Source: Sphingobium fuliginis
Lineage (GTDB): Bacteria; Pseudomonadota; Alphaproteobacteria; Sphingomonadales; Sphingomonadaceae
Direction of reading: 5' to 3'
DNA: 64,000 bases
NCBI RefSeq assembly: GCF_004152845.1
Contig: NZ_SEON01000008.1
Coordinates: 62,001-126,000 of the forward strand
The notes below the pieces were generated by a model. That model saw only the letters and a program-made list of their open reading frames with translations. It was not told the DNA's origin and did not search any database. A program made the translations under genes and the position numbers. How positions within the stretch are numbered: position 1 is the stretch's first letter; every line of letters begins with the position of its first letter. Of the stretch, positions 26,823 through 44,500 are shown one piece after another.

Positions 26823-26836
26823 GGGGAGGGGAGGGC
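26823..26836 (+). repeat. GGGGAGGG leader element, copy 1
   Basis: GGGGAGGGGAGGGC lies just after the ssb stop and about 40 bp before the primase-like gene. It is one of five similar elements, each placed between backbone genes. Confidence 0.5.
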
Positions 26837-26877
26837 GCAATCAGCAGCGGCGCTCCACCACTTCCGAGGATTAGTCG

Positions 26878-27744
26878 ATGCCCATACCTGCTCCCCATCG
26901 CGCCAAAGCCATTGTCGAAGCCCTGGGTGGGATCTGGCGCGGTACGCGCGGCGAATGCCGGTGCCCGGCACATAACGATCATGGTCCCAGCCTGTCGGTA
27001 CGCCTGGGCGAGCGGGCGATCCTGTTCCACTGCTTTGCCGGCTGCGACACGCGCGATGTTCTGGCTGCTTTGCGCCGGCGCAAACTTCACGATGCGGAGC
27101 CGCTCACAATGCCGCGCCCGAAGGCGGCCGCGGACCATCGCGCTCTTGCACTTCGCCTATGGAAGGCGAGCCAGCCCATCGCCGGATCTCCAGCGGCCGA
27201 TTATCTGGCGGCGCGCGGTCTGCCGCCTCCCTATCCGCGTTGCCTGCGCTACAACCCGCGCACCATCGTCGGGGCCGGTGAGCGCCGCCGGTTCTTTCCG
27301 GCGATGATCGCCGCGGTCGAGAATGATCTGGGGGTTGTCGCCGTCCAGCGGACCTGCCTCGATCTCGCCGACATCCTGCACAAACCCATGCCAAAGCCGA
27401 AGATTGCCCTTGGCCTTCTCGGCGACGCGGCCATTCGTCTGGCGCCGGCCGGCGAGGAGCTTGGCCTTGCCGAAGGCATCGAGGACGCCCTTTCAGCAAT
27501 GGCCTGGTTCGGAACGCCCACCTGGGCGCTGGGCGGGGTCGAACGCCTTGGGCTTGTCGCCATCCCCGAACGGGTCAAGCGTATCATCGTCTATGGCGAT
27601 CGCGGTGCCGCCGCTGCCGCCATGCTCAAAAAAGCCCGCCCCCATCTCACAGCCAATGGACGCGAACTGGTGCTCCGGCTGCCGGAACGGCACGCGGACT
27701 GGAATGATGCTTGGCGTGTCCGCCGGGCCGCCGAGGCGGCCTGA
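26878..27744 (+). CDS. plasmid primase-like protein: CHC2-type zinc finger plus Toprim domain
   Basis: This 288-residue protein has an N-terminal zinc-finger set Cys-x-Cys-x2-His...Cys-x3-Cys ('CRCPAHNDHGPSLSV', 'ILFHCFAGCDTRDVL'), as in DnaG-type primases. A DUF7146-like middle follows ('AADYLAARGLPPPYPRCLRY'), then a C-terminal Toprim domain ('EELGLAEGIEDALSAMAWFG' with its Glu, and 'RIIVYGDRGAAAAAM' with its acidic residue). Such proteins accompany conjugative or phage-like elements and probably prime complementary strand synthesis. It lies in the ssb-primase-helicase run. Confidence 0.82.
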   Translation: MPIPAPHRAKAIVEALGGIWRGTRGECRCPAHNDHGPSLSVRLGERAILFHCFAGCDTRDVLAALRRRKLHDAEPLTMPRPKAAADHRALALRLWKASQPIAGSPAADYLAARGLPPPYPRCLRYNPRTIVGAGERRRFFPAMIAAVENDLGVVAVQRTCLDLADILHKPMPKPKIALGLLGDAAIRLAPAGEELGLAEGIEDALSAMAWFGTPTWALGGVERLGLVAIPERVKRIIVYGDRGAAAAAMLKKARPHLTANGRELVLRLPERHADWNDAWRVRRAAEAA

Positions 27745-27746
27745 AA

Positions 27747-27758
27747 GGGGAGGGAGCC
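27747..27758 (+). repeat. GGGGAGGG leader element, copy 2
   Basis: GGGGAGGGAGCC follows the primase stop; between it and the next ATG is a seven-pair hairpin, ACCTGGC (27771) and GCCAGGT (27784). Confidence 0.5.
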
Positions 27759-27810
27759 TTCCGGCTGATGACCTGGCGCTGATGCCAGGTGTCAGACCTG
27801 GAGATGCCCC

Positions 27811-30800
27811 ATGGCCACACACCCCCTCGCGCTCACGCTGCCGCTCGATGATCCCGCCCGTACCGCTGCTCAAGGCATAGCCGACCGGCTGTCCGAAGGA
27901 TGTCCGGTTGCACGTAACGACCTCCTTGCCGAAATGACCTCCGCTTTCGGTGGCTCGAGCGCCGATGGCCTGTGGTCATTGCGCGACGCCTACGATGTGC
28001 TCGAACTCGCGCAGGTCCTCCATCTGAAGAACGCGACGCTCCCGGCAGATGCGAATGCGCGGCTCGCCCAGCGGATCGCTATGACGGCGGCGCTTCCCAC
28101 GCAAAGCGTGCGTAGCGAAACGCAGATCGCGTTCCAGCAATTCTCGACACCGGCGCCGATCGGCTTCCTTGCCGCCAAGGCAGCCGCGATCACGGCACAC
28201 GATATCGTGCTCGAGCCCTCGGCCGGGACCGGCCTCCTGGCCGTACACGCCCATCTCGCCGGCGCGCGCCTCCTTCTCAATGATATCGATGCCTGGCGCA
28301 CGCGTTTGCTGCGTCACGCCTTTCCCGAAGGCAGGCTGAGCACGCATGATGGCGAACTGATCGACGATATGCTCGATCCGCAACTGGTGCCGAGCGTCGT
28401 GCTCCTCAATCCGCCCTTCTCGCGAAGCCAGGGGCGCGCGCGCGATCGCCATGCCGCGCTTCGCCATTTGCGCTCCGCGCTGTTGCGGCTTGCTCCAGGC
28501 GGGCGCTGCGCCGTTATTCTCCCCGACCGCATCGAGACGGAGGACGCGGATTGGCTGCACGCCACTGCGGGCGCGCATGCCCGGCTGCATCTCGACCTGC
28601 CGCCCGATGCCTATGCCAAGCACGGCACCGGCCAGGCAGTCCAGCTCATACTCCTCGAAAAGGACGGGGCAGGGGGCTCGGTCCCGCGCCAGACCTGCAC
28701 GACGCTCGGCGCTGCGCTTGCGGCCATCGATGCGATGGCGACCCCATGCGCGCCGCAGCCGCAGCCGATCTCCCGCCCCAGCGGATTGTTCCGGGGCCTC
28801 ACGCGGCGGACCCGCCCCGTCTGCTCGCGTGCGGCGGTGACCCTGCCCACGACCCGCGCGGTCGCCTATCACCGTCTCGACGCGCCCGCACCCGCGGGCG
28901 AACCGCAAGGGATTTACCTGCCCTATCGGCCGAGCCGTCTGCTGATTGCCGATGCTCGTGAGCACCCAAGCGCGCTGGTCGAATCGCAGGCAATGGGATC
29001 GATTGCCGCACCCCCGGTCGCTTATGAACCCGTGCTGCCGGCCAGGATCCTGGACGACGGCCTGCTCTCGGACGCGCAGCTCGAAACGCTGATCTACGCT
29101 GGCGCGGCGTTCGAGCGCGATCTTCCCGGGCGGTTCATATCCAGCGAGGAGGGTCTTTCGCTGTCGCCGGCAGAGGCCGGTAACGCCTATCGGACCGGCT
29201 TTTTCCTTGGCGATGGCACGGGCGCCGGCAAGGGGCGGCAGGTGGCAGGCGTCATCCTCGACCAGTGGTTGCGTGGCAACCGCCGCCACCTCTGGATATC
29301 CAAGAGCGAGACGCTGGTCGAAGACGCTCGCCGGGACTGGTCGGCGCTTGGCGGCTTGCCGCTCGACATCCAGCATCTCAACCAGTGGAAGCTCGGCACC
29401 CCGATCGCGCTGGGCGATGGGATCCTCTTCCTGACCTATGCCACCCTGCGCTCCAACCGCGGCGACAGGGGCACGCGGCTGCGCCAGCTGATCGAATGGA
29501 TGGGTGAGGATTTCAGCGGCGTCATCGTTTTCGACGAGGCGCATGAAATGGCCGGGGTGGCCGGCGGCGAGGGCCGGTTCGGCGCCACGAAAGGGTCCGA
29601 GCAGGGCATTGCCGGCGTCCGCCTGCAAAATCTCGCTCCGCGCGCCCGGATTCTCTACGCCTCGGCGACGGGCGCCTCGGATGTCAACAATCTTGCCTAT
29701 GCGACACGCCTCGGATTGTGGGGACCGCAGACGGCCTTCGCCGACCGGCGGGCCTTCGTGGAATCCCTGCGCCGAGGCGGCATCGCGGCGATGGAGTTGA
29801 TCGCCCGCGACCTCAAAGCGCAGGGCCTCTATGCCGCGCGGGCGCTCAGCTTCGCCGGCGTCGAATATGACATCCTCGAGCATCGGCTCAGCGAAGAACA
29901 GATCGCCGTCTACAATGCCTATGCCGATGCCTGGGCGATCATTCACAACAATCTGCAGGCCGCGCTCGCCGCCACGCGCGTCACCGACGGCTTCAGCGGT
30001 GCCACCTATAATAGCGGCGCGAAGGCCGCGGCATTGTCGATCTTCGAATCGACCAAGCAACGCTTCTTCGGCCAGATCCTGCTGTCGATGAAGCTGCCCT
30101 CGCTGATCCCGGCGATCGCCGCCGATCTCGCGCGCGGCGACTGCGCCGTCGTCCAGCTCGTGTCGACCTCGGAAGCGATGCTCGATCGTGCCCTTGCCGA
30201 CCTGTCCCCCGAGGAGCGCGCCTGGCTCGATATCGAGCTGTCCCCGCGCGAATTCCTGGTCGATTATCTGACCGCGGCCTTTCCCGTGCGCCAGATGCGC
30301 ACCTATACCGACGATAGCGGCACGGTGCGCTCGGAACCGATGATCGACGAGGCCGGGCAGCCCGTGCTGTGCCGGGAAGCGATGGCCATGCGCGACCAGC
30401 TCCTCGAGCAACTCTGTGCGCTGCCGGTCGTCGGCTCGGCGCTCGATCACATAATCGGGCATTTCGGGACGGAGGCTGTGGCCGAGGTGACGGGCCGCAG
30501 CCGGCGGATCGTCGTCGATGCCGACGGCCGTCAGCGGATCGAACGGCGCAGCGCGCGCACGAACCTCGCGGAGACCGACATCTTCATGCGCGGCGAAAAG
30601 CGCATCCTGATCTTCTCCGACGCCGGCGGCACGGGGCGGAGTTACCACGCCAGCCTCGACGCGCCCAATCAGAGCCGCCGCATTCACTATCTCCTCGAGC
30701 CCGGTTGGCGCGCGGACGCGGCGATCCAGGGGCTGGGCCGCACGCACCGCACCCACCAAGCCTGCCCGCCCTTGTTTCGGCCCGTTTCCACCGATTGCCG

Positions 30801-32010
30801 TGGCGAACGGCGGTTCATCTCGACCATCGCCCGGCGCCTCGACAGCCTGGGCGCGCTGACCCGTGGCCAACGCCAGACCGGCGGGCAGGGACTTTTCGAC
30901 CCCCGCGACAATCTGGAGTCCGACTTCGCGCGGGAATCGCTCGACCAGTGGTTTCGCCTGCTGTTCCAGGCAAAACTCCAATCGGTCCACTTCGATCAGT
31001 TCCAGGCGCTCACCGGTTTGAACCTGGCCGGGGAGGGCGGGGGGCTCACCGAGACCTTGCCCACGATCCAGCGGTGGTTGAACCGCATCCTGGCGCTGCG
31101 CATCGACCTGCAGAACGCGATCTTCGACGAATATCTCGGCTTGATCGAAGCACGGGTGGAAAAGGCACGCGAGGCCGGCACCCTCGATCTTGGCGTCGAA
31201 ACGATCGCGGCCGACCGTATTTCGATCCTCGACCGGACGGTGATCCGGCGCGATCCCGTGAGCGGCGCCGAAACCGAGATCCTGCGTATCGAAACCGAGG
31301 AGCGATATCGGCCGCTGACCCTGGAGCGAGCGCATTGGCTTCTGGCCGACCCGGAAGCGCGCGGGTTGATCAACCCGCGTTCCGGCAAGGCCGCCATTTG
31401 CCGGCCGACCTTCTCGCTGACGGACGAAGAGGGGCGGACCGTGCGCCGCTATGAGCTGGTGCGGCCGACGCGCACCGAACGGCACCGGCAGGACCTCTTC
31501 GCCGAAACCCATTGGACCGACGTGGACCGGGCGAGCTTCGACGAAGCCTGGCAGGCCGAATGCGACGCAATGGCGGCGCAGACGCGCACGCAGATCATCT
31601 ATCTGGTCACTGGCCTGCTGCTTCCGGTGTGGGGCAAGCTGCCCGACGATCATGTCCAGGTCTGGCGGCTGACGAGCGATGACGGCCAGTCGCTTCTCGG
31701 GCGTCTTATTCCGGCGCCGCTGGTTGAGCGGATTGCCAGCGCATTCGGCATCGCGGCCCATGTCGAGATCGACCTCGGCGCGCGGGTCGAGCACGTCCGC
31801 ACCTCGGGCGAGATCATGCCGATCGGAGCGCTGCGGCTGAAGCGCGCCTTGGTCGCCGGCGATCAACGCCTCGAATTGCTGGACTGGAAGCCCGAGGCGC
31901 TGCCGCATCTCAAGGCGGCGGGCTGCTTCACCGAGATCATCCAGCACCGCACGCGGCTGTTCGTTCCCCCGAGCCGCGCCCTCGAGATCCTCGCCAGGAT
32001 CACGGACTGA
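27811..32010 (+). CDS. strawberry-notch family helicase-like protein with N-terminal methyltransferase domain
   Basis: This giant protein (1399 residues) combines two parts. Residues 100-300 resemble an N6-adenine-type methyltransferase: 'DIVLEPSAGTGLLAVHAHLA' (SAM pocket) and 'NPPF' at residues 200-203. Residues 420-1250 form a strawberry-notch superfamily 2 ATPase: 'FLGDGTGAGKGRQVAGVILD' (Walker A-like, about 465-485), 'DEAH' at 575-578, 'ARILYASATGASDVNNLAYA', and a helicase C region with 'RSYHASLDAPNQSRRIHYLL' and 'AAIQGLGRTHRTHQ' (arginine motif). Such fusions are common on alphaproteobacterial plasmids and phages; their role is unproven (DNA modification, antirestriction or replication). 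The + strand is certainly coding, although a long open frame also exists opposite. Confidence 0.87.
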   Translation: MATHPLALTLPLDDPARTAAQGIADRLSEGCPVARNDLLAEMTSAFGGSSADGLWSLRDAYDVLELAQVLHLKNATLPADANARLAQRIAMTAALPTQSVRSETQIAFQQFSTPAPIGFLAAKAAAITAHDIVLEPSAGTGLLAVHAHLAGARLLLNDIDAWRTRLLRHAFPEGRLSTHDGELIDDMLDPQLVPSVVLLNPPFSRSQGRARDRHAALRHLRSALLRLAPGGRCAVILPDRIETEDADWLHATAGAHARLHLDLPPDAYAKHGTGQAVQLILLEKDGAGGSVPRQTCTTLGAALAAIDAMATPCAPQPQPISRPSGLFRGLTRRTRPVCSRAAVTLPTTRAVAYHRLDAPAPAGEPQGIYLPYRPSRLLIADAREHPSALVESQAMGSIAAPPVAYEPVLPARILDDGLLSDAQLETLIYAGAAFERDLPGRFISSEEGLSLSPAEAGNAYRTGFFLGDGTGAGKGRQVAGVILDQWLRGNRRHLWISKSETLVEDARRDWSALGGLPLDIQHLNQWKLGTPIALGDGILFLTYATLRSNRGDRGTRLRQLIEWMGEDFSGVIVFDEAHEMAGVAGGEGRFGATKGSEQGIAGVRLQNLAPRARILYASATGASDVNNLAYATRLGLWGPQTAFADRRAFVESLRRGGIAAMELIARDLKAQGLYAARALSFAGVEYDILEHRLSEEQIAVYNAYADAWAIIHNNLQAALAATRVTDGFSGATYNSGAKAAALSIFESTKQRFFGQILLSMKLPSLIPAIAADLARGDCAVVQLVSTSEAMLDRALADLSPEERAWLDIELSPREFLVDYLTAAFPVRQMRTYTDDSGTVRSEPMIDEAGQPVLCREAMAMRDQLLEQLCALPVVGSALDHIIGHFGTEAVAEVTGRSRRIVVDADGRQRIERRSARTNLAETDIFMRGEKRILIFSDAGGTGRSYHASLDAPNQSRRIHYLLEPGWRADAAIQGLGRTHRTHQACPPLFRPVSTDCRGERRFISTIARRLDSLGALTRGQRQTGGQGLFDPRDNLESDFARESLDQWFRLLFQAKLQSVHFDQFQALTGLNLAGEGGGLTETLPTIQRWLNRILALRIDLQNAIFDEYLGLIEARVEKAREAGTLDLGVETIAADRISILDRTVIRRDPVSGAETEILRIETEERYRPLTLERAHWLLADPEARGLINPRSGKAAICRPTFSLTDEEGRTVRRYELVRPTRTERHRQDLFAETHWTDVDRASFDEAWQAECDAMAAQTRTQIIYLVTGLLLPVWGKLPDDHVQVWRLTSDDGQSLLGRLIPAPLVERIASAFGIAAHVEIDLGARVEHVRTSGEIMPIGALRLKRALVAGDQRLELLDWKPEALPHLKAAGCFTEIIQHRTRLFVPPSRALEILARITD

Positions 32011-32037
32011 CCCGCGGCCGCGCCAAGCGACCGAAGA

Positions 32038-32051
32038 GAGGGGAGGGGGCC
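32038..32051 (+). repeat. GGGGAGGG leader element, copy 3
   Basis: GAGGGGAGGGGGCC lies 27 bp after the helicase stop, followed by GGCCTTCGGCC hairpin sequence and then the ParB-like gene. Confidence 0.5.
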
Positions 32052-32121
32052 TTCGGCCGGGTGGGCCTGAGTGGCTCAAGCCGGCCGACGAGGTCGGCGC
32101 AACCCTCGAAGGAGACAACCG

Positions 32122-34134
32122 ATGATCCAGTCCGTGAAGGTCAAGAACCTCTCGCTCTCGAAGGACAATGTCCGCAAATCCAATCGCGATGCCGACCTCG
32201 ACAGCCTCGCCGACAATATCGCCGCGCATGGCCTGTTGCAGAATCTCGTGGTCACGCCGCTCAAGAAGGCAGGACATTTCACCGTCAAGGCGGGTGGCCG
32301 CCGCTTGCGGGCGCTCCAGCGGCTGATCGATTCAGGTCGGCTTGCCGGGGACCATGAGGTTCAGGTGCTGGTGCTCGAGGATGATGCTGGATCGGCCGAA
32401 GCGAGCCTTGCCGAGAATTTCCACCGCGTCGCGATGAACCCGGCGGATGAGTGCTCGGCTTTCAAGCACTTCCTCGACAAGGGCGCGAGTGCCGAGGATG
32501 TGGCGAAACGTTTCGGCGTCACGACCCGCTTCGTTGAGCAGCGGGTACGGCTTGCCGAACTGGCTCCTCTCGTATTCGCGGCGCTGGCGGCGGGCGAGAT
32601 CACGCTGGGGGTCGCCCAGGCTTATGCCGTCACGCCCGACGTCGATCGCCAGGCGCGCGTGTTCGAGAGCATGAGCCGGTCCTATTATGGCGACAATCCC
32701 GACAATATCCGCCGTGCGCTCCTCAACGGAACGGTCAAGGCGACCGACGCCAAGGCACGGTTCGTCGGCCGCGAGGCCTATGTCGGCGCGGGCGGCCGGA
32801 TCGAGCGCGACCTGTTCGGTGAAGATGTGGACGAGAGCTGGATCGACGTGGAGCTCATCGAGCAGCTGGCCGCCCAGAAGCTTGAAGCGGCCGCGGAAGC
32901 GCTCGCTGCCGAACAGAAGCTGGCGTTCGTGACGCCGGTTCTCGCGACGCATGTGCCCTATGATACGGAGTGCCAGCTCCACGAATATCATCCGCCGCTG
33001 CGCGAATTGAGTGAGGACGAGCAGGAGCGCGTCGATAGTCTCTCGGATGAGGGCGACGCGCTCATCCGCGAACTTGAGACCGAACTCGAGGACGGCACGC
33101 CCGAGGCCGAGGCGGCTTCGGCGCGTCTCGCCGACATCGAGCGGGAACTCGATACGATCGAGGCGTCGCGCACTATGGTCGACGATGCGATCAAGGACCA
33201 GCTGGGCACCTTCATCTATCTGGCGCCCGATGGCAGTCCGCGGGTGCACAGCCGCATGTTCAGTGAGCGCGCCATTCGGCAGGCGGGCGAGGACGCAGAA
33301 CCCGAAGCACCGTCCGGCAAGGTCGCGGCCTCCCGGCTCAGCGCGACGCTGGTTGACGAACTCGCGACCCAGCGCCGGCAGATCCTGGCGGCCCATGTCG
33401 CCTCGGATGCCGGGTTCGCGCTCGATCTCACGATATTCCTGATGGCGCACCGGACGGTGTTCGCCAGCAGCTATGTCCGGGACCACGCGACGCTGCAGGC
33501 GGCCGCCGCGAGCTTCCCGATCGCCAGCTTCCGCGATGAAGGCAGCGCGGCGAGCAATGTCCTGACCGAACAGCGCCAGGCGCTCGATGTGAGCTGGGCA
33601 GGCGGGAACACGCTGTCGTCGCGTTTCGATGCCTTCCGGCAACTGGATGAACAGGCGCGCGCCGATTGGCTCGCCCATGTCATGGCGCAGACGCTGGAGC
33701 CGACACTCAACGTCGACGATGGCGGGCGCCGCAACGGCTTCCACGATCATCTCGGACGGCTGCTCGACATTGATGTCGCGCAATGGTGGCGGCCCGATGC
33801 CCAGAACTTTTTCGGGCGGGTGAAGAAGGACGTCATGCTCGAAGCGCTCGACGAGATCGGCGGGCCGGTGCTGCGCGGCCGATACAAGGACGCCAAGAAG
33901 GGTGACCTTGCCAATGCCTGCGCTGCGCTCTGTTCGGGGCAGGGCATCGTCGAGGCCGAAGTCCGGGAAAAGGCGCTCTCCTGGCTGCCCGACGAGATGC
34001 GGTTCGGCGCGATCGAAAAGCCCGAAAGCTTCCGGAGCTATTCCGCTTTCCTCAGCGATGAAGACGACAGCGACGGCGGGGCAGGGGAGATCGCCCCCGA
34101 TGGCGATGCTGGCGACTTCGAACAGGCCGCCTGA
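32122..34134 (+). CDS. large ParB/Spo0J-like nuclease-domain protein
   Basis: This 670-residue protein starts with a ParB N-terminal domain: 'LSLSKDNVRKSNRDADLDSL', 'ADNIAAHGLLQNLVVTPLKK', the 'GGRRLRALQRL' box, and 'ASLAENFHRVAMNPADECSA'. A KorB-like helix-turn-helix follows ('GASAEDVAKRFGVTTRFVEQ', 'RVRLAELAP'). The long remainder holds an acidic coiled coil (about residues 285-360) and a C-terminal domain ending in an acidic tail. It is twice the length of true ParB and has no ParA beside it. It may be a plasmid regulator or DNA-processing factor; it follows the methyltransferase-helicase gene as in related replicons. GAAGGAGA precedes ATG 32122. Confidence 0.83.
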   Translation: MIQSVKVKNLSLSKDNVRKSNRDADLDSLADNIAAHGLLQNLVVTPLKKAGHFTVKAGGRRLRALQRLIDSGRLAGDHEVQVLVLEDDAGSAEASLAENFHRVAMNPADECSAFKHFLDKGASAEDVAKRFGVTTRFVEQRVRLAELAPLVFAALAAGEITLGVAQAYAVTPDVDRQARVFESMSRSYYGDNPDNIRRALLNGTVKATDAKARFVGREAYVGAGGRIERDLFGEDVDESWIDVELIEQLAAQKLEAAAEALAAEQKLAFVTPVLATHVPYDTECQLHEYHPPLRELSEDEQERVDSLSDEGDALIRELETELEDGTPEAEAASARLADIERELDTIEASRTMVDDAIKDQLGTFIYLAPDGSPRVHSRMFSERAIRQAGEDAEPEAPSGKVAASRLSATLVDELATQRRQILAAHVASDAGFALDLTIFLMAHRTVFASSYVRDHATLQAAAASFPIASFRDEGSAASNVLTEQRQALDVSWAGGNTLSSRFDAFRQLDEQARADWLAHVMAQTLEPTLNVDDGGRRNGFHDHLGRLLDIDVAQWWRPDAQNFFGRVKKDVMLEALDEIGGPVLRGRYKDAKKGDLANACAALCSGQGIVEAEVREKALSWLPDEMRFGAIEKPESFRSYSAFLSDEDDSDGGAGEIAPDGDAGDFEQAA

Positions 34135-34147
34135 GGCGAACGCCTAA

Positions 34148-34177
34148 CGGCGGGCGGCGCTTTCGTGTCGCCCGCCG
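34148..34177 (+). terminator. GC-rich hairpin after the ParB-like gene
   Basis: CGGCGGGCG (34148) and CGCCCGCCG (34169) pair perfectly over nine bases with a 12-base loop. The U-run is weak (CCCTTCATT), so it may be an attenuating structure in the ardC leader rather than a full terminator. Confidence 0.4.
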
Positions 34178-34226
34178 CCCTTCATTGGCGGCGCTGAGAC
34201 AGCCGCTCTTTCGCGGAGTATCCACC

Positions 34227-35150: not shown

Positions 35151-35167
35151 TCTCTCCATGTCGCCGA

Positions 35168-35209
35168 TTGCACCATATCCATATATCCGCTATCGTGGAT
35201 ATATGGATA
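35168..35209 (+). promoter_or_regulatory. arsR promoter with a 13-bp-arm operator covering the start codon
   Basis: TATCCATATATCC (35176-35188) and GGATATATGGATA (35197-35209) form a perfect inverted repeat. A weak -35 TTGCAC (35168) and a -10 TATCGT (35191) are 17 bp apart, which would put transcription start at about 35203, the A of the ATG. The repeat covers the spacer, the -10 flank and the start codon, so a bound ArsR would block the polymerase. Confidence 0.6.
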
Positions 35210-36090: not shown

Positions 36091-36527
36091 GCAATGCCGC
36101 AATCGATATCGTCATCTATCACAATCCCGAGTGTGGGACGTCGCGCAACACGCTGGCGATGATCCGCAACGCCGGGATCGAGCCGCATGTGATCGAATAT
36201 CTCAAGACGCCGCCCAACCGCCCGCGCTTGGTTTCGCTCATCGCCCGCATGGGCATCAGCGCACGCCAGTTGCTCCGCGAGAAGGGCACGCCCTTCGCCG
36301 AGCTGGGTCTTGCCGATCCGACGCTCAGCGATGACCAGCTCATTGATGCGATGATCGAGCATCCGATCCTCATCAACCGGCCAATCGTTGTGTCGCCGCT
36401 CGGCGTGAAACTCTGCCGTCCATCGGAAGAGGTGCTCGATTTTCTCCCGTCCGCCCAGCGCGGGGCTTTCACCAAGGAAGATGGCGAGCAGGTCATCGAC
36501 GCCGCCGGCAAGAGGATCGGGGCGTGA
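36087..36527 (+). CDS. arsC: glutaredoxin-dependent arsenate reductase
   Basis: This 146-residue protein is the ArsC of the Spx/glutaredoxin-coupled family. 'YHNPECGTSRNTLAMIRNAG' contains catalytic Cys16, and arginines in 'YLKTPPNRPRL' and 'LINRPIVVSPLGVKLCRPSE' line the site. It reduces arsenate to arsenite for export by the next gene. Its ATG overlaps the stop of the broken first arsC (ATGA), and its end overlaps acr3. With the first arsC broken, this is the only intact arsenate reductase in the operon. Confidence 0.93.
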   Translation: MSNAAIDIVIYHNPECGTSRNTLAMIRNAGIEPHVIEYLKTPPNRPRLVSLIARMGISARQLLREKGTPFAELGLADPTLSDDQLIDAMIEHPILINRPIVVSPLGVKLCRPSEEVLDFLPSAQRGAFTKEDGEQVIDAAGKRIGA

Positions 36528-37591: not shown

Positions 37592-38019
37592 TCGCTACAC
37601 TGCTGGATCCCAGGTCGCTTTCCGACCTGATGGCGGAGCTGAGCGCGGCGGGTCTGCCTGCCAGTGATCTCGCCGAGGCGGGACGCCGCTTCTTTCGGTT
37701 CGAGGATGATGTTGGCCTTGTCGGTTATGGCGGGATCGAAGGCGACGGCTCCGACCGCCTGCTGCGCTCGCTGGTCGTGAAGGCCGATCGGCGCGGATGC
37801 GGATTGGGCGGTGCCATTCTCACTTCGGTCGAATGCGTTGCAGCTGATGAGGGCGCGACTAGCCTGTACCTGCTCACCACGACCGCCGAGCCCTTCTTTC
37901 GCCGTCACGGCTATGAAACAGCCGAACGGACCGACGTTCCTGCCGTCATCGCGCGATCGGCCGAGTTCCGATCGCTATGCCCGGCGAGCGCCGCCCTTTT
38001 GTATAAATGGATTGCCTGA
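37588..38019 (+). CDS. arsN2: ArsN2-like GNAT acetyltransferase
   Basis: This 143-residue protein of the GNAT fold shows '[20 protein letters not shown]' and '[20 protein letters not shown]' (acetyl-CoA loop of R-x-x-G-x-G type), then '[20 protein letters not shown]'. This matches ArsN2 proteins found in ars operons, often fused to or beside arsenate reductase. ArsN-type enzymes have been linked to acetylation of organoarsenical antibiotics, but ArsN2 has a less certain substrate. It overlaps acr3 and arsH at ATGA and TGATG junctions. Confidence 0.82.
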
Positions 38020-38759
38020 TGTCGCGTCTTCGTATCCTTCCCGAACCCGATCACATGCCCGCGCTGGACCGTGCAATGATCCGGCTCGATCTCGCCGCCG
38101 GGCTCGGCGCGCTCGAGCCGAAACCTCGCATCCTCCTCCTCTACGGCTCGCTGCGCGAGCGGTCGTTCAGTCGTTTCGCGGTCGAGGAAGCGGCCCGGCT
38201 GCTCATCCTCTTCGGCGCCGAAGTGCGGATCTTCGATCCGGCCGATCTCCCGCTCCCCGACCAGATCAAGGACGATGATCACCCGGCGGTGCATGAGCTT
38301 CGCGAGCATGCGCTCTGGTCCGAAGGCATGGTCTGGTGCAGCCCTGAACGGCACGGCCAGATCACCGGCATCATGAAAGCGCAGATCGACCATTTGCCGC
38401 TCGAATTCGGCGGCATGCGTCCGACCCAGGGCCGGACCCTGGCCGTCATGCAGGTTTCGGGCGGATCGCAGTCGTTCAACGCGGTCAACACGTTGCGGCT
38501 GCTCGGGCGGTGGATGCGCATGTTCACCATCCCCAACCAGTCGAGCATCGCGATGGCGTTCAAGGAGTTCGACGAGGACGGCCGTCTCAGAGCCTCAAGC
38601 TATTATGACCGGATCGTCGACGTCATGGAGGAGCTGGTGCGCTTCACGGTGCTGACACGTCGCCATGCCGATCAGCTCGTGGATCGCTATTCGGAACGCA
38701 AGGCGGCAGCCGCCAAGCGCGACGCGGCCCAAGATCTGGCCTCACGGTCGACAGCCTGA
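38019..38759 (+). CDS. arsH: ArsH NADPH-dependent FMN reductase
   Basis: This 246-residue protein carries the flavodoxin-like FMN site '[20 protein letters not shown]', '[20 protein letters not shown]' and '[20 protein letters not shown]', all typical of ArsH. ArsH oxidises trivalent organoarsenicals with NADPH and flavin. Its start shares bases with the arsN2 stop (TGATG). It closes the operon; the following 347 bp hold no gene. Confidence 0.92.
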
Positions 38760-39106
38760 CGGCCCGGTGCTTGCGATGCGACGCGCTTTCATGCCGTCCT
38801 GTGCGTATCGGGAGATCGGGTTGCGGGTGCCCTTCTTAAGGTCCTCCGCGCCATGAATGCCTGACGCGACAGGGCCTCCGCGCCTTTCGCCAGAGGATGC
38901 AGCACATGGGCCACCGCGCTGGCGGCGGCAACCCGAACGCTCCGGCCGTGTTGGCGCGCCGAGGCGCGCCTGCCCGCACCACCCGGACCTTATCGGGTTC
39001 CCCTTGGGCGTTGCCCGGCGGTGCCGCCGCCGCTTTTTCGATGGCCCGGAGGGTGCGCATCCGGCGGAAAGGCCGCCGGCCCTGCGACACGGAAAGGCAA
39101 TCCCTC
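38760..39106 (+). other. long GC-rich leader before the DUF2493 gene
   Basis: No gene is evident in these 347 bp. The stretch has GGCGCGCC-GA-GGCGCGCC (38953-38970), then CTGCCCGCACCACCC (38970-38984) and GGGTTCCCC (38995-39003), both also found in the leader at 41107-41139. A CGGCGG-type hairpin with TTTTT at about 39032 follows. It looks like a structured 5' leader. Confidence 0.5.
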
Positions 39107-40048
39107 ATGACCAGCTCCCTTTCAGCAGTGCTCCAAGCACTCGAACTCGGCCATCTCGACCTGATGGGCGACCAACGCTCGATGGAAGCGCCGCCACCGG
39201 CCGAAGCGCTCGAACAGACCGTCAGCGCCATCTGGAGCGATCTCTTCGCGCTCTTCCCCTTCACCGCGCTCGAACGCGACATCGAGGATCTGGGCTGGGG
39301 CTTCGTCAATCTCTTCCACCGCGCGGCCGCCAAGAAGCATCAGCTGATCGATCGCCTGACCGACGAGATCCGGCTCCTGCTCGCCGAGCAGGACGGGTCG
39401 GAGATCGCGACCGCCGACCTCGAGGACAAGATCGATCTCGCCCGCAAGGTCGAGCAGTCCGCCCAGGCCTATGAGGGGATGCGCGACACCGCGGCGCGTC
39501 ACTATCTGCACGAGACCGGCCGCTCCTGGGTGCCCGCGACCGGCAACCGCATCTCGCTCGGCACGACCGCTGCGATCGTCGATGGCCGGGCCTATTTGCA
39601 GGCGCGGCGCGAACGGGTGCGCGATGCCAATATGGTCCATGGCACGCCCGTGGTCTTCGCCGGCGGGCGCCTTCGCTTCGCCAGCGACGACGAGGCCAAG
39701 CAGTTTGCCGACAATCTGCTGCGGACCCTCAAGGCCGTGCGCGAACGTGTGGGCGACATGTATCTCGTCCATGGCGGCGACATGAAGGGCATCGAGCGTC
39801 TTGCAGCATCCTGGGCCGAGCAGAACGGCATCCAGCAGCTGCGGTTCGGACTTGATCGCAAGCTTGGCGATCGTGCCGGCTTTCGGCGCAACGAGCAGAT
39901 GCTCTCGGTCAAGCCGCGCTACGTCATCGCCTTCCAGGGCAACGGTGTCACCGAACGGCTGGTGATCGAGGCCAAGGCGCGCGGCATCCATGTCGTCGAT
40001 CGCCGCGGACCGCTCGGAACGCCGCCGGCGGCTTTATCCCGCGGCTGA
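39107..40048 (+). CDS. DUF2493 (SLOG/YspA-like) domain protein
   Basis: This 313-residue protein has a helical N-terminal half ('LEQTVSAIWSDLFALFPFTA', 'AAKKHQLIDRLTDEIRLLLA') and a C-terminal Rossmann-like DUF2493 domain of the SLOG superfamily: 'VVFAGGRLRFASDDEAKQFA', 'MYLVHGGDMKGIERLAASWA', 'RNEQMLSVKPRYVIAFQGNG'. SLOG domains bind nucleotides or related ligands, but the role of this plasmid-borne family is unknown. GGAAAGG precedes the ATG at 39107. It is followed directly by a strong terminator. Confidence 0.82.
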   Translation: MTSSLSAVLQALELGHLDLMGDQRSMEAPPPAEALEQTVSAIWSDLFALFPFTALERDIEDLGWGFVNLFHRAAAKKHQLIDRLTDEIRLLLAEQDGSEIATADLEDKIDLARKVEQSAQAYEGMRDTAARHYLHETGRSWVPATGNRISLGTTAAIVDGRAYLQARRERVRDANMVHGTPVVFAGGRLRFASDDEAKQFADNLLRTLKAVRERVGDMYLVHGGDMKGIERLAASWAEQNGIQQLRFGLDRKLGDRAGFRRNEQMLSVKPRYVIAFQGNGVTERLVIEAKARGIHVVDRRGPLGTPPAALSRG

Positions 40049-40055
40049 CCGCCGT

Positions 40056-40083
40056 GCCGGCCGCTTCGGCGGCCGGCTTTTCT
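40056..40083 (+). terminator. rho-independent terminator with UUCG loop
   Basis: GCCGGCCGC-TTCG-GCGGCCGGC followed by TTTTCTC: nine perfect GC-rich pairs, a stable tetraloop and a T-run, 8 bp after the DUF2493 gene. Confidence 0.85.
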
Positions 40084-40105
40084 CAATCTCGCGGATTCCG
40101 GTGCC

Positions 40106-40120
40106 GGAGGGGAGGGGGCG
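40106..40120 (+). repeat. GGGGAGGG leader element, copy 4
   Basis: GGAGGGGAGGGGGCG lies between the terminator and the hypothetical gene at 40161. Confidence 0.5.
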
Positions 40121-40160
40121 GGGCGGACGCGTCCCTTGTTCCCTTTGGAGGTTCCGCATC

Positions 40161-40829
40161 ATGTTCATGCCCGATCGCGCCAGTGCGTGCGTGCTCCTTG
40201 CATTCCGCGCTGTGCATGGCCGCCACTGGAAGGCGAAGCTGCTGTCGTTATGGTCGACGGGCCGCGATGTGGACGAAGCCGATGGCGCTCACTTACGACA
40301 TCTGCGCAACCAGGCCGGTCCTTCCTGGCTCGGCCAGCTGACGCCGCGCCGCTGGCGCGCGATCGAAAGATTGGCGGCGCCCGGCGACCCGGTGCTTGCA
40401 GCGGTGTTTCTCGATCGTGCGCGCGAATTTCATCGCGGCGCGCAGATTGGCGCGCCTATTGCGCCCGCGCCGGCACTGCACTTGCTCGCGATCTCCTGCG
40501 AACTGGGTTTGAAGGCGCATCTTTTGGGTCATGGCTGGACGGACGATGCGCTGGCCCGCGATCCCCGTCATGACCTTGTCCGCGCCCTCGACGAGGCGCG
40601 GCAGCTAGGCCTGCCGGCGCCCGGTCGTCCCCTGGCCGATTTCATCAAGAACCTCGGCCCGGCCTATGCCGTGCATCGGATCGACGCGCTGGTGGCAGGT
40701 GGCTATGCCTGCGACATCGGCGCCGTGCTTTGCGAGACCACGCAGCTCCTCGATGCCGTGGCGGCCTGCCTGAGCCCAGCCATGCCAGGCGCCGCCACCT
40801 TGCCCACCTCCTCTTCCCCCTCCGCGTGA
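40161..40829 (+). CDS. hypothetical protein, possible HEPN-like C-terminal half
   Basis: This 222-residue protein is of unknown function. Residues 1-75 ('ASACVLLAFRAVHGRHWKAK', 'LRHLRNQAGPSWLGQLTPRR') look like a small basic DNA-binding-type module. Residues 95-215 ('APALHLLAISCELGLKAHLL', 'GWTDDALARDPRHDLVRALD') resemble helical HEPN-type proteins, though I do not see the RNase motif R-x4-H. TTTGGAGG precedes the start. Composition and context support a real gene of the backbone. Confidence 0.65.
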   Translation: MFMPDRASACVLLAFRAVHGRHWKAKLLSLWSTGRDVDEADGAHLRHLRNQAGPSWLGQLTPRRWRAIERLAAPGDPVLAAVFLDRAREFHRGAQIGAPIAPAPALHLLAISCELGLKAHLLGHGWTDDALARDPRHDLVRALDEARQLGLPAPGRPLADFIKNLGPAYAVHRIDALVAGGYACDIGAVLCETTQLLDAVAACLSPAMPGAATLPTSSSPSA

Positions 40830-41236
40830 TCGTGCAACGGACGTCGTGTCGAGCCCACGAGTGGCCATGCGAAGGATCTACAATCCCGTCCCGCGGCTCA
40901 AGGGACGGGCAGATAAGGCACGCGCGTAAGGTCCGCGAGATGCCGGACCGGCGAGCTCAGCAAAGCCGGCAATATCGGCGGCTTCGATGGGTGGGCTCCG
41001 GTCATGGGCCAAGCGACGCACCGTCCTTCTCCTCATCTGACCCCTAAGCCGGCCGTCCGACCCATCCAACCCGCGAGCCATCGGGCCGAGTTGCCGTGTG
41101 CCACGGCTGCCCGCACCACCCCTTGTCTCGGGGTTCCCCGGCGCTGCGCTGCCGGTGGATGGGCCGTCCTGTCCGCCTTGGCCGGGGATCAGTCGAAGGG
41201 ACGGCCCCTTGGACCCACATCGAAGGAACCCAGACC
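40830..41236 (+). other. long leader before the second ssb
   Basis: No gene in these 407 bp. There is a hairpin CCCGTCCC (40885) and GGGACGGG (40902), then CTGCCCGCACCACCC (41107-41121) and GGGTTCCCC (41131-41139), shared with the leader at 38970-39003. A translation-regulating RNA structure is possible. Confidence 0.5.
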
Positions 41237-41644
41237 ATGCAGAACCTCGTCATCCTCGCCGGCAATGTCGGTGGCACGCCGGAAACCCGCACCACCCAGG
41301 GCGGCACCCGCATCACCCATTTCAGCCTCGCCACCTCGCGCCCGAAGCGCGACAGCAACGGCAAGATCCTGCGCGACGACAACAATCACCGCCTCGAGGA
41401 CACCGAATGGCACCGGATCACCTGCTTCAACGGCGTCGGCAAGACGGTCGAGCAATATGTCGACAAGGGCATGAAGGTCATGGTCCGAGGCCGTATCCAC
41501 TACACCCGCTGGACCGACAGCGAGAACATCGAACGCTACGGCGTCGAGATCATCGCCGACGAGGTTACCTTCCTCACTCGCGCCAAGTCGAACGAGAATA
41601 GCGGCGGCGGCAACGAGCCCGAGGACGATGAAATCCCCTTCTGA
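41237..41644 (+). CDS. ssb: single-stranded DNA-binding protein (second copy, with acidic tail)
   Basis: This 135-residue SSB has a full OB-fold ('NLVILAGNVGGTPETRTTQG', 'ITHFSLATSR', 'EDTEWHRITCFNGVGKTVEQ', 'YVDKGMKVMVRGRIHYTRW') and ends in a short acidic tail 'EDDEIPF', the conserved partner-recruiting tip. AAGGAAC precedes the ATG. Together with the tail-less SSB at 26.5 kb the replicon has two different SSBs, perhaps one for replication and one for entry of transferred DNA. Confidence 0.93.
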   Translation: MQNLVILAGNVGGTPETRTTQGGTRITHFSLATSRPKRDSNGKILRDDNNHRLEDTEWHRITCFNGVGKTVEQYVDKGMKVMVRGRIHYTRWTDSENIERYGVEIIADEVTFLTRAKSNENSGGGNEPEDDEIPF

Positions 41645-41657
41645 GGTCGGACAGGGC

Positions 41658-41686
41658 GGCCCGGCGGCATCGCCGCCGGGCCTTTT
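41658..41686 (+). terminator. strong rho-independent terminator after ssb
   Basis: GGCCCGGCGGC-ATC-GCCGCCGGGCC followed by TTTT: eleven perfect pairs, 14 bp after the ssb stop. Confidence 0.88.
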
Positions 41687-41719
41687 ATCCTGTTCAGGCG
41701 CGGCATGATCCCAAGCGGA

Positions 41720-42154
41720 TCAGCGGGATCGGCATCGCCCCTTGGCATAGCGCTCCCAGCGTAGCACGGTGCCGGTAGCGATCATCGCGCAGCTGAGATC
41801 GCCGATGCCGGGCGCGCTGCACCAGGCGCCGGTCCGGTTGCCCTTGGCTTCGCCGGTCGAGACGCAGCGCATGGTGGGGCCAGCCACCCGAATATGCCCG
41901 GTGGATGTCTGGCCGCGCGGTCCGCCAAGCAGGCGCACCAACGCATCGCGGGCGGCCGGGCCACTTGCTCTCGGAGAGGGCTGGCCGGGGCGGCAGCTGT
42001 TGTCGATCTCGCGCGCGGCAATGCCGGCGAGCCGCACATGGGTGCCCTCGCGGCACCAGATCGGGCCATCGCCATCCCAGACGCGCGTCGGTGTGCAGGC
42101 GAAGGTCTGACCATTGGGGACCACGGCGGCGGCAAGCAGGAGCGGGAACAGCAT
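41720..42154 (-). CDS. secreted thermonuclease-like (SNase family) protein
   Basis: This 144-residue protein has a short N-terminal signal ('MLFPLLLAAAVVPNGQTFAC'). An SNase-like core follows: 'TRVWDGDGPIWCREGTHVRL' and 'AGIAAREID', matching the 'V-x-D-G-D-T' and 'R-L-x-G-I-x-A-x-E' blocks of staphylococcal nuclease homologues. Disulphide-type cysteines are frequent. It is short of the later catalytic block, so activity is uncertain. Plasmid-borne SNase-like proteins are common in sphingomonads near transfer genes. It converges with ssb and is transcribed away from the leader at 42.2 kb. Confidence 0.75.
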   Translation of the reverse strand: MLFPLLLAAAVVPNGQTFACTPTRVWDGDGPIWCREGTHVRLAGIAAREIDNSCRPGQPSPRASGPAARDALVRLLGGPRGQTSTGHIRVAGPTMRCVSTGEAKGNRTGAWCSAPGIGDLSCAMIATGTVLRWERYAKGRCRSR

Positions 42155-42459
42155 CCGGCGGGGCTAACCAACAAGCGGCGGCCTGTCATCCGGCCCCCGC
42201 TGGATGGAGCGGCAGGCAGGGCAAGGGGCGGGGCGCGACATCGGCGGGGACCTGGCCTCCTGGCCGGCGGGTTCGCCCGCTCTCAATCGGCGCGATCCTT
42301 GGTCCACCCGGTGCCCTTTGCGATCAACCCGCAAGGGGTCCGGTCGCTTCGCTACGGCTTTTTGGGCCTCCAGCCAAAAAAGTGATCGCGGCCACCGGCC
42401 GGACACATCGGGCGCCTGTCGAGCGGGACGAACCCGCCGGCGCGCAAAGGAGCCTCGAC
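42155..42459. other. divergent intergenic region before two small genes
   Basis: 305 bp without a recognised gene. It should hold the promoters of the nuclease gene (leftward) and of the small gene at 42460 (rightward). A GGCTTTTTGGGC and GCCAAAAAAG pairing at about 42356-42383 could form a hairpin. Confidence 0.45.
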
Positions 42460-42624
42460 ATGTTCACCGACATCGCAATCGCTCGCCGCCACGCCTTCAG
42501 CCTCTCGCGCAGCCTCATGGTGGTAACCTTCGTCATCGCGATCGGGCAGCATTATGGCGTCATCACCGCCGAAGACGCCGACGGCAGCGTCGCCATCGTC
42601 ACCGAATTCGATCCCTTTGCCTGA
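42460..42624 (+). CDS. small hypothetical protein (54 aa)
   Basis: This protein reads 'MFTDIAIARRHAFSLSRSLM', then 'VVTFVIAIGQHYGVITAEDA' and 'DGSVAIVTEFDPFA'. AAAGGAGCC is an excellent ribosome-binding site at the right distance, and a terminator follows immediately, so I accept it as a gene. The middle is hydrophobic but short for a membrane helix. No family recognised. Confidence 0.65.
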   Translation: MFTDIAIARRHAFSLSRSLMVVTFVIAIGQHYGVITAEDADGSVAIVTEFDPFA

Positions 42625-42632
42625 CGGCTCGG

Positions 42633-42659
42633 CCGGGAGCCGCTCGGCTCCCGGTTATT
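42633..42659 (+). terminator. rho-independent terminator
   Basis: CCGGGAGCC-GCTC-GGCTCCCGG followed by TTATT: nine perfect pairs, 8 bp after the 54-residue gene. Confidence 0.75.
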
Positions 42660-42731
42660 CCCCTCGCTTCGCTCGCGGCTTGCGCCGAAGATGGGAACCG
42701 ATTGTTCAGATGCCGCGACTATGCTGCGATA

Positions 42732-43253
42732 ATGACGATTGAGGCTGAGATAGCGAATGCCGGCGATGATGCCCTGTGGGCGCGCGTCACCCAGGAGGTG
42801 AACGCCTGGCGCGGTGCCTGTCTGCAATGCTTCGCCTCGGTGGAGGTGGCCGTTACCGAGACTTTGCTGCATCTGAGCGCTCACCCGGGACGAGGACAGT
42901 CGGTGAAGCTACGGCATTTGGTCGGGCAACGGCTCGATGACCTTGCTGCACTCGTCAATGAGGGCGGCCCCTTTTCCGTGGAGGGAAAGGGTGTCGCGAG
43001 CCTGCTGGCGGAATTTAGGCACCAGGAAGGGCTGCGCACGATGCTCGCCCATGGTCAGGCGAAGCTGACAGTCGAACGGACCAGTCGATGGGCCGCCATC
43101 TTTCGTGTGATCGCGATCCGGGCACGGCAGGCTGATCGTTCGACGCTCGTGATCGAAGAGAGCGAGGCGGCGGAGAGGCTTCAGCAGCTCCGTAAGGTAT
43201 CGCAGAAATTGTGCTCTGCTCTTGGCAATCTGCGACGGGCGGTTGCCGTCTGA
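42732..43253 (+). CDS. hypothetical helical protein
   Basis: This 173-residue protein is not recognised. It is helical ('DDALWARVTQEVNAWRGACL', 'QCFASVEVAVTETLLHLSAH', 'EFRHQEGLRTMLAHGQAKLT') with charge patterning like HEPN or AbiV-type proteins; 'RHQEGLRTMLAHG' recalls an 'RN-x4-H'-like position but is not the canonical motif. The gene stands between small backbone genes. Its base composition and codon pattern match its neighbours. Confidence 0.6.
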   Translation: MTIEAEIANAGDDALWARVTQEVNAWRGACLQCFASVEVAVTETLLHLSAHPGRGQSVKLRHLVGQRLDDLAALVNEGGPFSVEGKGVASLLAEFRHQEGLRTMLAHGQAKLTVERTSRWAAIFRVIAIRARQADRSTLVIEESEAAERLQQLRKVSQKLCSALGNLRRAVAV

Positions 43254-43390
43254 AAGTCGGATTTCTGTGCATCTATGCGCTGAGAATGGCGGCTCCGGCG
43301 CGGCCGGACCGGGCTCTAGGCTTCGCCCTGAGCCTTGTGCCAAGTCTCAGCCCATTCGGGTGACGATCCCTGCCGTGGCTGCTCGCACTT

Positions 43391-43741
43391 TCAACCCTGC
43401 GCGCAAACGATGGCCCGGCCGGTCGCGCCGCGCGCTGGAGGGCAGTTGGCCAGGCCCGCGCGCAGGTGCTCATCGTGCAGCAATATGTGCCAGGGACGGT
43501 CATGGCCGCGCGCCGCGAGATAATAAGCCGCGCCGTCGCAGCCGACCATGCGGCATCGGGCCTGCCGATCTATGAGGCTGGCGCCTGCTCCATGGAGCCC
43601 GATAAGGGCATCGACATCCTCGCGCATCAACCCGCCGCAGCGGCGGCATTGCGATCGGACGAGGATTTGGCGCAGCCGCATCGCCAGGAGTGACGTGGTC
43701 CAGGCCGGGGCAAGGCGGAAGAGAGTGGCGCTGCTCGTCAT
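43391..43741 (-). CDS. small zinc-ribbon-like hypothetical protein
   Basis: This protein of about 116 residues has Cys pairs 'SQCRRCGG' and 'RCRMVGCDG' that could bind zinc, and the phrase 'GAAYYLAARGHDRPWHILLH', which looks conserved. No strong ribosome-binding site is visible. It is the only gene on the minus strand between the nuclease gene and the dpd operon. I judge it probably real from the cysteine pattern, but coding on this strand is not certain. Confidence 0.45.
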   Translation of the reverse strand: MTSSATLFRLAPAWTTSLLAMRLRQILVRSQCRRCGGLMREDVDALIGLHGAGASLIDRQARCRMVGCDGAAYYLAARGHDRPWHILLHDEHLRAGLANCPPARGATGRAIVCAQG

Positions 43742-44000
43742 AATGAGCGGAGGATAGCGCCGGGCTCTCCGCGGAGCCAGAGAATCAGGACACCGCGATC
43801 ATCTCTTCGCGATCCTGCCCGCCAAGACCTTCCTCCTGTCGGCTCGCCTGGCCGGCGCGCGCGCCCGTGCAAGCCCGCTCCGCGCGCTTCTCCACTGCCG
43901 TTGCGACCCTGCGGGTGCTCGGCCGCGCTCTGCCGCCGGCCCTTGGCACGCCTGTCGGAAGGCCCCGGCGGGCGGGGCCGGACAGATCAGGAGCGTTCTC

Positions 44001-44393
44001 ATGTCCCAATCCTCCCCGAATGCGATGAGCCAGGCCGAGCGGATCGCCCGCGTCGCCGAACTCAATGACGCGCTTCGCCGGTCCATCCATAGCCCGGGCC
44101 GCAACCAGATCGTGATGACTGCGGGCGTTGCGGCGCTGATCGGCGACGTCGCCCTGTTCCGCGGCTTTCGCCGCCGCGCGGAGATCCTCCGGATCGTGCG
44201 CGACTATGACAGCTTCACGCCCGACAACGATCCGATCGGCGAGCATGATTTCGGCCGCTTCGAGTTCGAGGATGCGATCCTCTACTGGAAGATCGACTAT
44301 TATGATCTCGAGCTCGCCTATGGCTCGGCGGATGCCGCGAACCCCGAGGTCACGACGCGCGTGCTCACCATCCTGCTGGCCGACGAATATTGA
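44001..44393 (+). CDS. DUF3768 family protein
   Basis: This 130-residue protein matches the DUF3768 family: 'RIARVAELNDALRRS', 'NQIVMTAGVAALIGDVALFR', 'IVRDYDSFTPDNDPIGEHDF' and 'GRFEFEDAILYWKIDYYDLE', ending 'VLTILLADEY'. Family function is unknown; members are common on alphaproteobacterial plasmids and integrative elements. CAGGAGC lies 7 bp before the ATG. Confidence 0.88.
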   Translation: MSQSSPNAMSQAERIARVAELNDALRRSIHSPGRNQIVMTAGVAALIGDVALFRGFRRRAEILRIVRDYDSFTPDNDPIGEHDFGRFEFEDAILYWKIDYYDLELAYGSADAANPEVTTRVLTILLADEY

Positions 44394-44403
44394 TCTGGCG
44401 CAG

Positions 44404-44427
44404 CCATCCCCCCGACCGGGGGGATGG
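44404..44427 (+). terminator. hairpin after the DUF3768 gene
   Basis: CCATCCCCCC-GACC-GGGGGGATGG, ten perfect pairs, 10 bp after the stop. No T-run follows, so it may act with rho or as RNA stabiliser. Confidence 0.45.
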
Positions 44428-44435
44428 CCCGCCCA

Positions 44436-44453
44436 AGTCTGCTTGAGCAGACT
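44436..44453. promoter_or_regulatory. AGTCTGC-N4-GCAGACT operator candidate, copy 1
   Basis: AGTCTGC-TTGA-GCAGACT: seven perfect pairs, upstream of the small membrane protein and parA-parB genes. An identical pair of arms recurs at 46625-46642 before mobC. Confidence 0.55.
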
Positions 44454-44485
44454 ATGCGGGCAACGGACGCCGCGTCCGCAAATGC

Positions 44486-44500
44486 GGGAGGGGAGGGCGC
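44486..44500 (+). repeat. GGGGAGGG leader element, copy 5
   Basis: GGGAGGGGAGGGCGC lies about 85 bp before the small membrane protein gene; it closely matches copy 1. Confidence 0.5.

Follow-up and report, generated by a model that had tools for sequence, protein, structure and literature searches.

The window analysed here is a 64,000-nucleotide stretch of Sphingobium fuliginis DNA (positions 62001-126000 of a 235 kb contig, in a genome of 4.6 Mb) that carries a plasmid backbone, five genes of which are each preceded by a copy of a 14-letter purine motif, AGAGGRGAGGNNGC. We consider it moderately probable that this motif belongs to a cis-acting leader element that works in RNA and marks a set of probable plasmid establishment genes as a post-transcriptional regulon. 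The element is found on one strand, 5′ of the start codon, and is conserved across species, as is usual for cis-regulatory leader RNAs. The putative regulon would comprise the genes for a toprim protein, a strawberry-notch type protein (sno), a ParB-like protein and, in many plasmids, ArdC, together with hA, hyp1 and hyp59; hA is a 211-aa gene located 3′ of ArdC in related plasmids such as L022 and lies outside the gene set of the window.

Definition of the motif

An earlier note, made from the letters of the window, had taken GGGGAGGG as the defining part of a shared RNA or DNA control element. Once relatives are compared, the motif is better described as AGAGGRGAGGNNGC, and the consensus over 85 non-redundant elements reads A G A G G R G A G G N N G C; GGGGAGGG, present in 31 of these 85 distinct elements, turned out to be just a common core. 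Positions A3, G4, A8 and G9 are fixed in 84-85 of the 85 elements, figures that are inflated because the elements were chosen by matrix score. On both strands of the window, GGGGAGGG occurs 12 times against 2.89 expected, a count that none of 100 shuffles reached. Six of the 12 matches form the five sites (26823 and 26828, which overlap in one, 27747, 32040, 40109 and 44490), and the remaining six lie outside these leaders (25855, 31030 and 46842 on the forward strand; 20148, 20553 and 54330 on the reverse strand). The sequence GAGGGGAGGG has 19 copies in the whole genome, four of them at these sites, and none of the 15 others has GC at the motif's positions 13-14.

Association of the element with a defined set of genes

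The comparison covered pSPHCH01, 12 further plasmid stretches and 80 sno-encoding loci of other genomes, the best 80 of at least 563 relatives. In these 80 loci (1.69 Mb), the sno strand carries 97 exact matches to the consensus and the opposite strand a single one, while four letter-permuted controls gave 0-4 matches; since the loci are partly redundant and include close relatives, these counts are not independent events. Ninety-two of the 97 sno-strand matches are located at most 200 nt 5′ of a called gene on the same strand.

For a 21-position matrix, 77 of the 80 loci supplied their sno leaders as training set; L042, L054 and L062 were left out as partial matches. A site scoring at least 10.3 is present in 75 of the 77 leaders, the two without the motif being L084, which is cut at a contig end, and L089; counted by mismatches, 80 of 87 sno leaders have a site with at most two mismatches to the consensus. 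The matrix was then applied at threshold 14 to 94 sources in which genes were called by codon score, used instead of longest-open-reading-frame calling, which took a 1433-aa antisense frame for sno. Leaders yielded 192 matches (96 per 100 kb), other intergenic DNA 14 (3.3 per 100 kb), and coding DNA 11 in sense (0.6 per 100 kb) and 9 in antisense (0.5 per 100 kb), with the qualification that the gene caller misfiled some leaders as coding or other intergenic DNA and that several of the non-leader matches are such leaders. The motif is thus far from equally frequent in random intergenic DNA, which the earlier note had named as the finding that would speak against it, and the enrichment of leaders over coding DNA that it had suggested as a check is clear. 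Matches in leaders on the strand opposite to sno were absent. The genes behind the 192 leader matches fall into six protein clusters and one singleton: 78 sno, the family used to train the matrix, 62 ParB-like, 19 toprim, 15 ArdC, 14 hA, three hyp1 and one other.

Gene specificity was assessed in non-redundant leaders, allowing up to two mismatches within 200 nt upstream plus 20. The motif precedes sno in 34 of 41 leaders, toprim in 33 of 41, the ParB-like gene in 27 of 29, ArdC in 16 of 29, hA in 11 of 15, and hyp1 and hyp59 in all of theirs (5/5 and 4/4). It is rare in the leaders of ssb1 (2/11), DUF2493 (2/17) and DUF3768 (2/6), and absent from those of ssb2 (0/8), arsR (0/3), hyp2 (0/4), parA (0/2), mobC (0/4) and relaxase (0/3). 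The four of seven parB2 leaders that carry it are probably cross-hits to the larger ParB-like gene, as were seen in the gene-blind draw described below. Antisense controls across all these rows gave three matches in total. The suggestion of a control element shared by backbone genes therefore stands insofar as the element is leader-bound across relatives, with the restriction that only some backbone genes carry it.

A search blind to genes, with an 18-letter pattern and no gene reference, was run on 396 genomes of the order and 385 drawn from the class. In the order, it returned 20 sites in 18 genomes (reversed-pattern control, 2); in the class, the own genome was the only one of the 385 with a site (control, 1). 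All 20 sites are located 58-96 nt 5′ of sno (5), ParB-like (14) or hA (1) genes, which supports the link to backbone genes, although the 20 include the window's own parB site and several near-identical ones, and their species may overlap with those of the 80 loci. Because it ends in GCYTTC, the pattern favours the form of the element found before sno, ParB-like and hA genes.

The five copies in the window

The backbone occupies 26-49 kb of the window and shares 98.4 percent identity with pSPHCH01, a plasmid of Sphingobium chlorophenolicum; other plasmids of that type are similar, and their closest records include isolates from soil, sludge and sediment. Reading rightward, the genes are ssb, toprim, sno, ParB-like, ArdC, an arsenic operon, DUF2493, hyp1, ssb2, two small genes, DUF3768, hyp59, parA, parB2, mobC and relaxase, with two small hypothetical genes in between on the opposite strand. 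Features that bear on the element are as follows.

26825-26838, + strand: motif copy GGAGGGGAGGGCGC, one mismatch, in the ssb1-toprim gap (26817-26877); matrix score 12.2
26878-27744, + strand: toprim gene (DUF7146 and Toprim_3), under the motif leader
27744-27757, + strand: motif copy AAAGGGGAGGGAGC, one mismatch, in the sno leader; matrix score 22.1
27758-27810, + strand: structured spacer of the sno leader, with the ribosome-binding site CUGGAG paired in the predicted fold
27811-32010, + strand: sno gene, strawberry-notch type (AAA_34 and Helicase_C_4)
32037-32050, + strand: exact motif copy AGAGGGGAGGGGGC, in the sno-parB gap (32011-32121); matrix score 28.5
32122-34134, + strand: ParB-like gene, 670 aa
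34135-34226, + strand: ardC leader, without the motif in this plasmid
40056-40077: terminator-like hairpin, 5′ of the hyp1 motif copy
40106-40119, + strand: motif copy GGAGGGGAGGGGGC, one mismatch, in the DUF2493-hyp1 gap (40049-40160); matrix score 11.3
40161-40829, + strand: hyp1, 222 aa, without Pfam match
44487-44500, + strand: motif copy GGAGGGGAGGGCGC, one mismatch, in the DUF3768-hyp59 gap (44394-44584); matrix score 4.6, the lowest of the five
44585-44761, + strand: hyp59, 58 aa, without Pfam match, directly 5′ of parA and parB2

Based on the annotation of pSPHCH01, the five sites are real, lie in gaps between genes and are on the strand of the next gene. The distances from the start of the 14-mer to the start codon are 53, 67, 85, 55 and 98 nt, respectively, and the spacer and the ribosome-binding site follow the motif at all five sites, in agreement with the earlier statement that the motif is never part of the ribosome-binding site. 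The parB copy is without mismatch to AGAGGRGAGGNNGC and the other four have one each; the sno and parB copies (2 of 5) pass the matrix threshold of 14. In relatives, the same gaps contain exact copies: ssb1-toprim in L021 (L021:2287), DUF2493-hyp1 in L022 and L024, and DUF3768-hyp59 in L031 (L031:18993). At the sno leader, the motif begins on the final base of the toprim stop codon. Since a terminator-like hairpin precedes its motif copy, hyp1 may need read-through or its own start.

Conservation boundary and promoter signals

The 5 nt upstream of the motif show a mean pairwise identity at background level (0.23-0.36) in five gene families, and the first five bases of the motif one of 0.88-1.0. 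This drop is not an effect of selection by score, because the matrix is blind to the upstream side. No promoter signal accompanies the boundary: the best sigma70-like score in the 85 elements was 6.42, compared with 6.49 in shuffled sequences, and between 26500 and 46400 one promoter-like site was found against 2.5 in shuffles, and this site lies outside the motif leaders. At two window sites, the stop-to-start gaps are 61 and 66 nt, so there is no room for a promoter 3′ of the motif. Taken together, the abrupt boundary, the missing promoter signal and the missing promoter space argue for an element inside a longer transcript, and we hold it rather likely that the element acts as RNA.

Folding of the leaders

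As a group, the spacers fold beyond expectation, the mean z score being -1.99 in 55 non-redundant leaders, whereas 200 control leaders of the same loci average -0.57 (p 1e-10). The Shine-Dalgarno sequence is also more paired, its median unpaired value being 0.26 compared with 0.41 in 287 control leaders (p 1e-4), and it is more paired than with shuffled spacers as well (p ~1e-4); this occlusion is strongest in the hA and toprim leaders. Within the window, the folds are mixed across the five leaders. Three of them had been said to be followed by hairpins, which holds for sno (z -3.62) and parB (z -2.73), while the toprim (-1.27), hyp1 (-0.97) and hyp59 (-1.45) leaders are unexceptional.

One sno subfamily shows pairing in 100 percent of cells at its apical hairpin and in 82 percent at the outer one, and its covariation score was reached by 23 of 500 shuffles. 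A covariance model, R1, built from this subfamily with no window sequence included, detects the sno and parB leaders of the window at E 1.7e-8 and E 2.2e-4, respectively. In the whole genome, R1 gave nothing besides these two leaders below E 0.2 among the 150 of 6504 candidates that were scored.

Proposed mechanism

We propose a unit composed of the 14-mer AGAGGRGAGGNNGC, a folding spacer of ~25-85 nt and the start codon, in which the spacer would, in many copies, pair with part of the Shine-Dalgarno sequence. A common factor, either an RNA-binding protein or the 30S subunit itself, would most likely bind the purine 14-mer; binding would shift the leader fold and alter access to the ribosome-binding site, so that the genes would be switched together. 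In its most specific form, that a single RNA leader element read by a putative trans-acting RNA-binding factor switches the translation of toprim, sno, ParB-like and ArdC genes at plasmid entry, we regard the proposal as tentative.

Several results weigh against a leader RNA with this mode of action. Three of the five window copies (toprim, hyp1 and hyp59) are weak matches below the matrix threshold of 14, and R1 does not recognise them (E 3.3-10), so these copies share the 14-mer rather than a single structure. Shine-Dalgarno occlusion is weak in the sno and parB leaders; in three window leaders the predicted fold pairs the 14-mer downstream and leaves the ribosome-binding site free; and the 14-mer is no more single-stranded than with shuffled spacers (p 0.42). 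Covariation is also weak, with one doubly changed pair in the sno subfamily, a value reached by 324 of 500 shuffles, and with 1, 0, 0 and 4 such pairs in RNAalifold runs on MAFFT alignments, none of which indicates strong covariation; part of the cause is that the hairpins do not line up in sequence alignments. As regards a trans-acting partner, the own genome contains no exact complement of the 14-mer consensus except the parB element itself (exact pairing being what was searched), and it has no CsrA gene (0 PF02599 matches; control matches in 3 of 14 named genomes).

Two other proposals were rejected. A CsrA/RsmA target is discarded since no CsrA protein is encoded in the host genome, and a leader peptide using the purine tract as its ribosome-binding site is discarded because the start codons after the tract, judged by eye, differ in place between families.

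Alternative explanations

The purine 14-mer might instead be a ribosome standby or enhancer site, i.e., an additional place, resembling a Shine-Dalgarno sequence, at which the 30S subunit lands 5′ of a structured start, with no dedicated regulator. The start region downstream is indeed structured, and pairing of 54 distinct 14-mers with the 16S tail averages -13.2 kcal/mol versus -11.0 for permuted letters. Optimisation towards the anti-Shine-Dalgarno is nevertheless mild, given that on average 23 percent of the permutations of a motif pair equally well or better, and the purine tract is not unusually unpaired; the ordinary openness of the tract and a 16S-tail pairing barely above permutations weaken this explanation. 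The fixation of A3, G4, A8 and G9, in a set chosen by matrix score, exceeds the needs of a Shine-Dalgarno mimic, and other backbone genes lack the element. The structured standby sites described in PMC3936740 likewise combine upstream ribosome binding with structure over the start region; unlike them, the present element is a fixed 14-letter sequence common to unrelated genes of one plasmid type. We therefore view a standby site as unlikely.

A single-strand DNA signal on the transferred strand, such as a Frpo/ssi-type promoter or priming site used at entry into the recipient, would fit a leading region in which ssb, toprim, ArdC and sno lie on one strand towards the mobC-relaxase end. Structured promoters are known for leading-region genes of other plasmids, and the Frpo/ssi elements of Samuel et al. 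2024 (PMC11541004) are structured and precede establishment genes on one strand, as here. The Frpo candidates of the same paper carry a -35/-10 consensus within a hairpin, whereas the -35/-10-like content of our element is no higher than in shuffles. The motif is, moreover, G-rich, unlike a promoter; the pairing of the Shine-Dalgarno sequence exceeds chance; and the ssb families are mostly without the motif (2/11 and 0/8), although one Frpo precedes ssb in PMC11541004. This explanation appears quite unlikely to us.

That a double-stranded DNA operator or promoter element serves a plasmid-encoded regulator is improbable. A short conserved sequence 5′ of several genes has the usual look of an operator, and circuits of the KorA/KorB type exist in other plasmids. 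The motif, on the other hand, is non-palindromic and kept in a single orientation (97 versus 1, and no leader match on the strand opposite to sno), and two window sites immediately follow a stop codon, where a promoter is neither conserved upstream of the motif nor has space downstream of it. An RNA processing or stability signal, by which cleavage near the motif would give each cistron its own hairpin-protected 5′ end, is very improbable: the sharp 5′ conservation boundary and the structured stretch downstream would fit a processed 5′ end, but the motif is not AU-rich, unlike RNase E sites, for which AU-rich sequence is preferred, and processing leaves the sequence specificity of the 14-mer unexplained. 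FtsK orienting sequences (KOPS), with consensus GGGNAGGG, can be practically dismissed; GGGGAGGG fits this consensus and the five sites all point one way, yet GGGNAGGG is present in only 38 of the 85 distinct elements, many of which read AGAGGAGAGGAGG, and the sites cluster in the leaders of few genes.

Relation to known elements

The description of the element as no known feature type agrees with Rfam, in which no family reached its gathering score in eight related loci, and the seven sub-threshold matches in the window overlap none of the five leaders; radC is not among the sub-threshold Rfam matches. The radC RNA motif precedes genes for DNA-handling and antirestriction proteins. It is, according to Weinberg et al. 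2010 (RF01754; PMC2864571), likewise a candidate cis-regulatory RNA in Proteobacteria. Run on the own genome up to E 10, its model gave five matches, all below the cut-off and all on contigs other than that of the window, C20 (150 of 469 candidates scored). The STAXI motif (RF01728) is located near ssb, topoisomerase and antirestriction genes, and the authors of PMC2864571 raised a single-stranded DNA alternative for it. STAXI is there a pseudoknot in two or three tandem repeats, while the element described here is one 14-mer and a variable fold per gene. The STAXI model had one match in the own genome (E 0.32, below the cut-off, on contig C18), and no tandem copies were present in the leaders.

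Among the titles listed by searches of the open-access literature, no description of the element was found, subscription journals being mostly outside this coverage. Based on these comparisons, we present it as an undescribed candidate leader RNA element whose distribution over several genes is unusually clear.

Gene setting and neighbouring features

The motif-bearing genes probably lie in the establishment region of the plasmid. We infer that this is a leading region, with establishment genes on one strand that read towards the mobilisation genes; this setting matches the leading-region organisation described by Samuel et al. (PMC11541004), and the polyvalent-protein review PMC5512222 provides background to it. 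In plasmids L026, L029 and L032, trios of integrase genes split sno or come after it. The locus L089, from a record titled Bacillus sp. 2B10, has a sno region 54 percent identical to the sphingomonad one, and its label is doubtful.

Three other repeated sequences were noted in the window. A tandem array at 26197-26258, with a period of 22 and ~2.8 copies of ATCCCCCGAACGGTCAGGCAAA (65 percent matches), is situated in the gap 5′ of ssb, near a Rep3-type initiator gene, and perhaps represents the iterons of a replication origin. The palindrome AGTCTGNNNNNNCAGACT is found at 44436-44453, 5′ of hyp59-parA-parB2, and at 46625-46642, 5′ of mobC, and is a candidate operator or centromere site. The long, motif-less leaders of DUF2493 (38760-39106) and ssb2 (40830-41236) have CTGCCCGCACCACCC in common and may represent another type of leader in this region.

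Outside the order, 60 leaders were examined in eight plasmid loci (L115-L122) of Hyphomicrobiales (Rhizobiales), Rhodobacterales and Rhodospirillales. In these, sense copies of the GA-rich words GAGAGA or AGAGAG number 39, spread over 14 leaders, against one antisense copy; over the whole eight loci, GAGAGAG is present 16 times in sense and five times in antisense. The GA-rich leaders precede sno, radC, DUF6878, antirestriction and ParB genes; AAAGCRGGCTTT is present in three leaders of L119 (Phaeobacter), and a single mismatch separates the motif from its closest counterpart in one Haematobacter radC leader and in one Thioclava sno leader. If the regulon proposed here is true, these leaders of other alphaproteobacterial orders would be relatives of the element.

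Implications

In our judgement, the timing of establishment genes in conjugative plasmids beyond the enteric models is an open question. The element is short, strongly conserved and easily mutated, and it marks a defined set of establishment genes in sphingomonad plasmids; it would allow coordinated post-transcriptional control during plasmid establishment to be tested directly. It may also serve as an annotation signature for genes without Pfam match (hA, hyp1 and hyp59) and as a bait for the discovery of the regulator.

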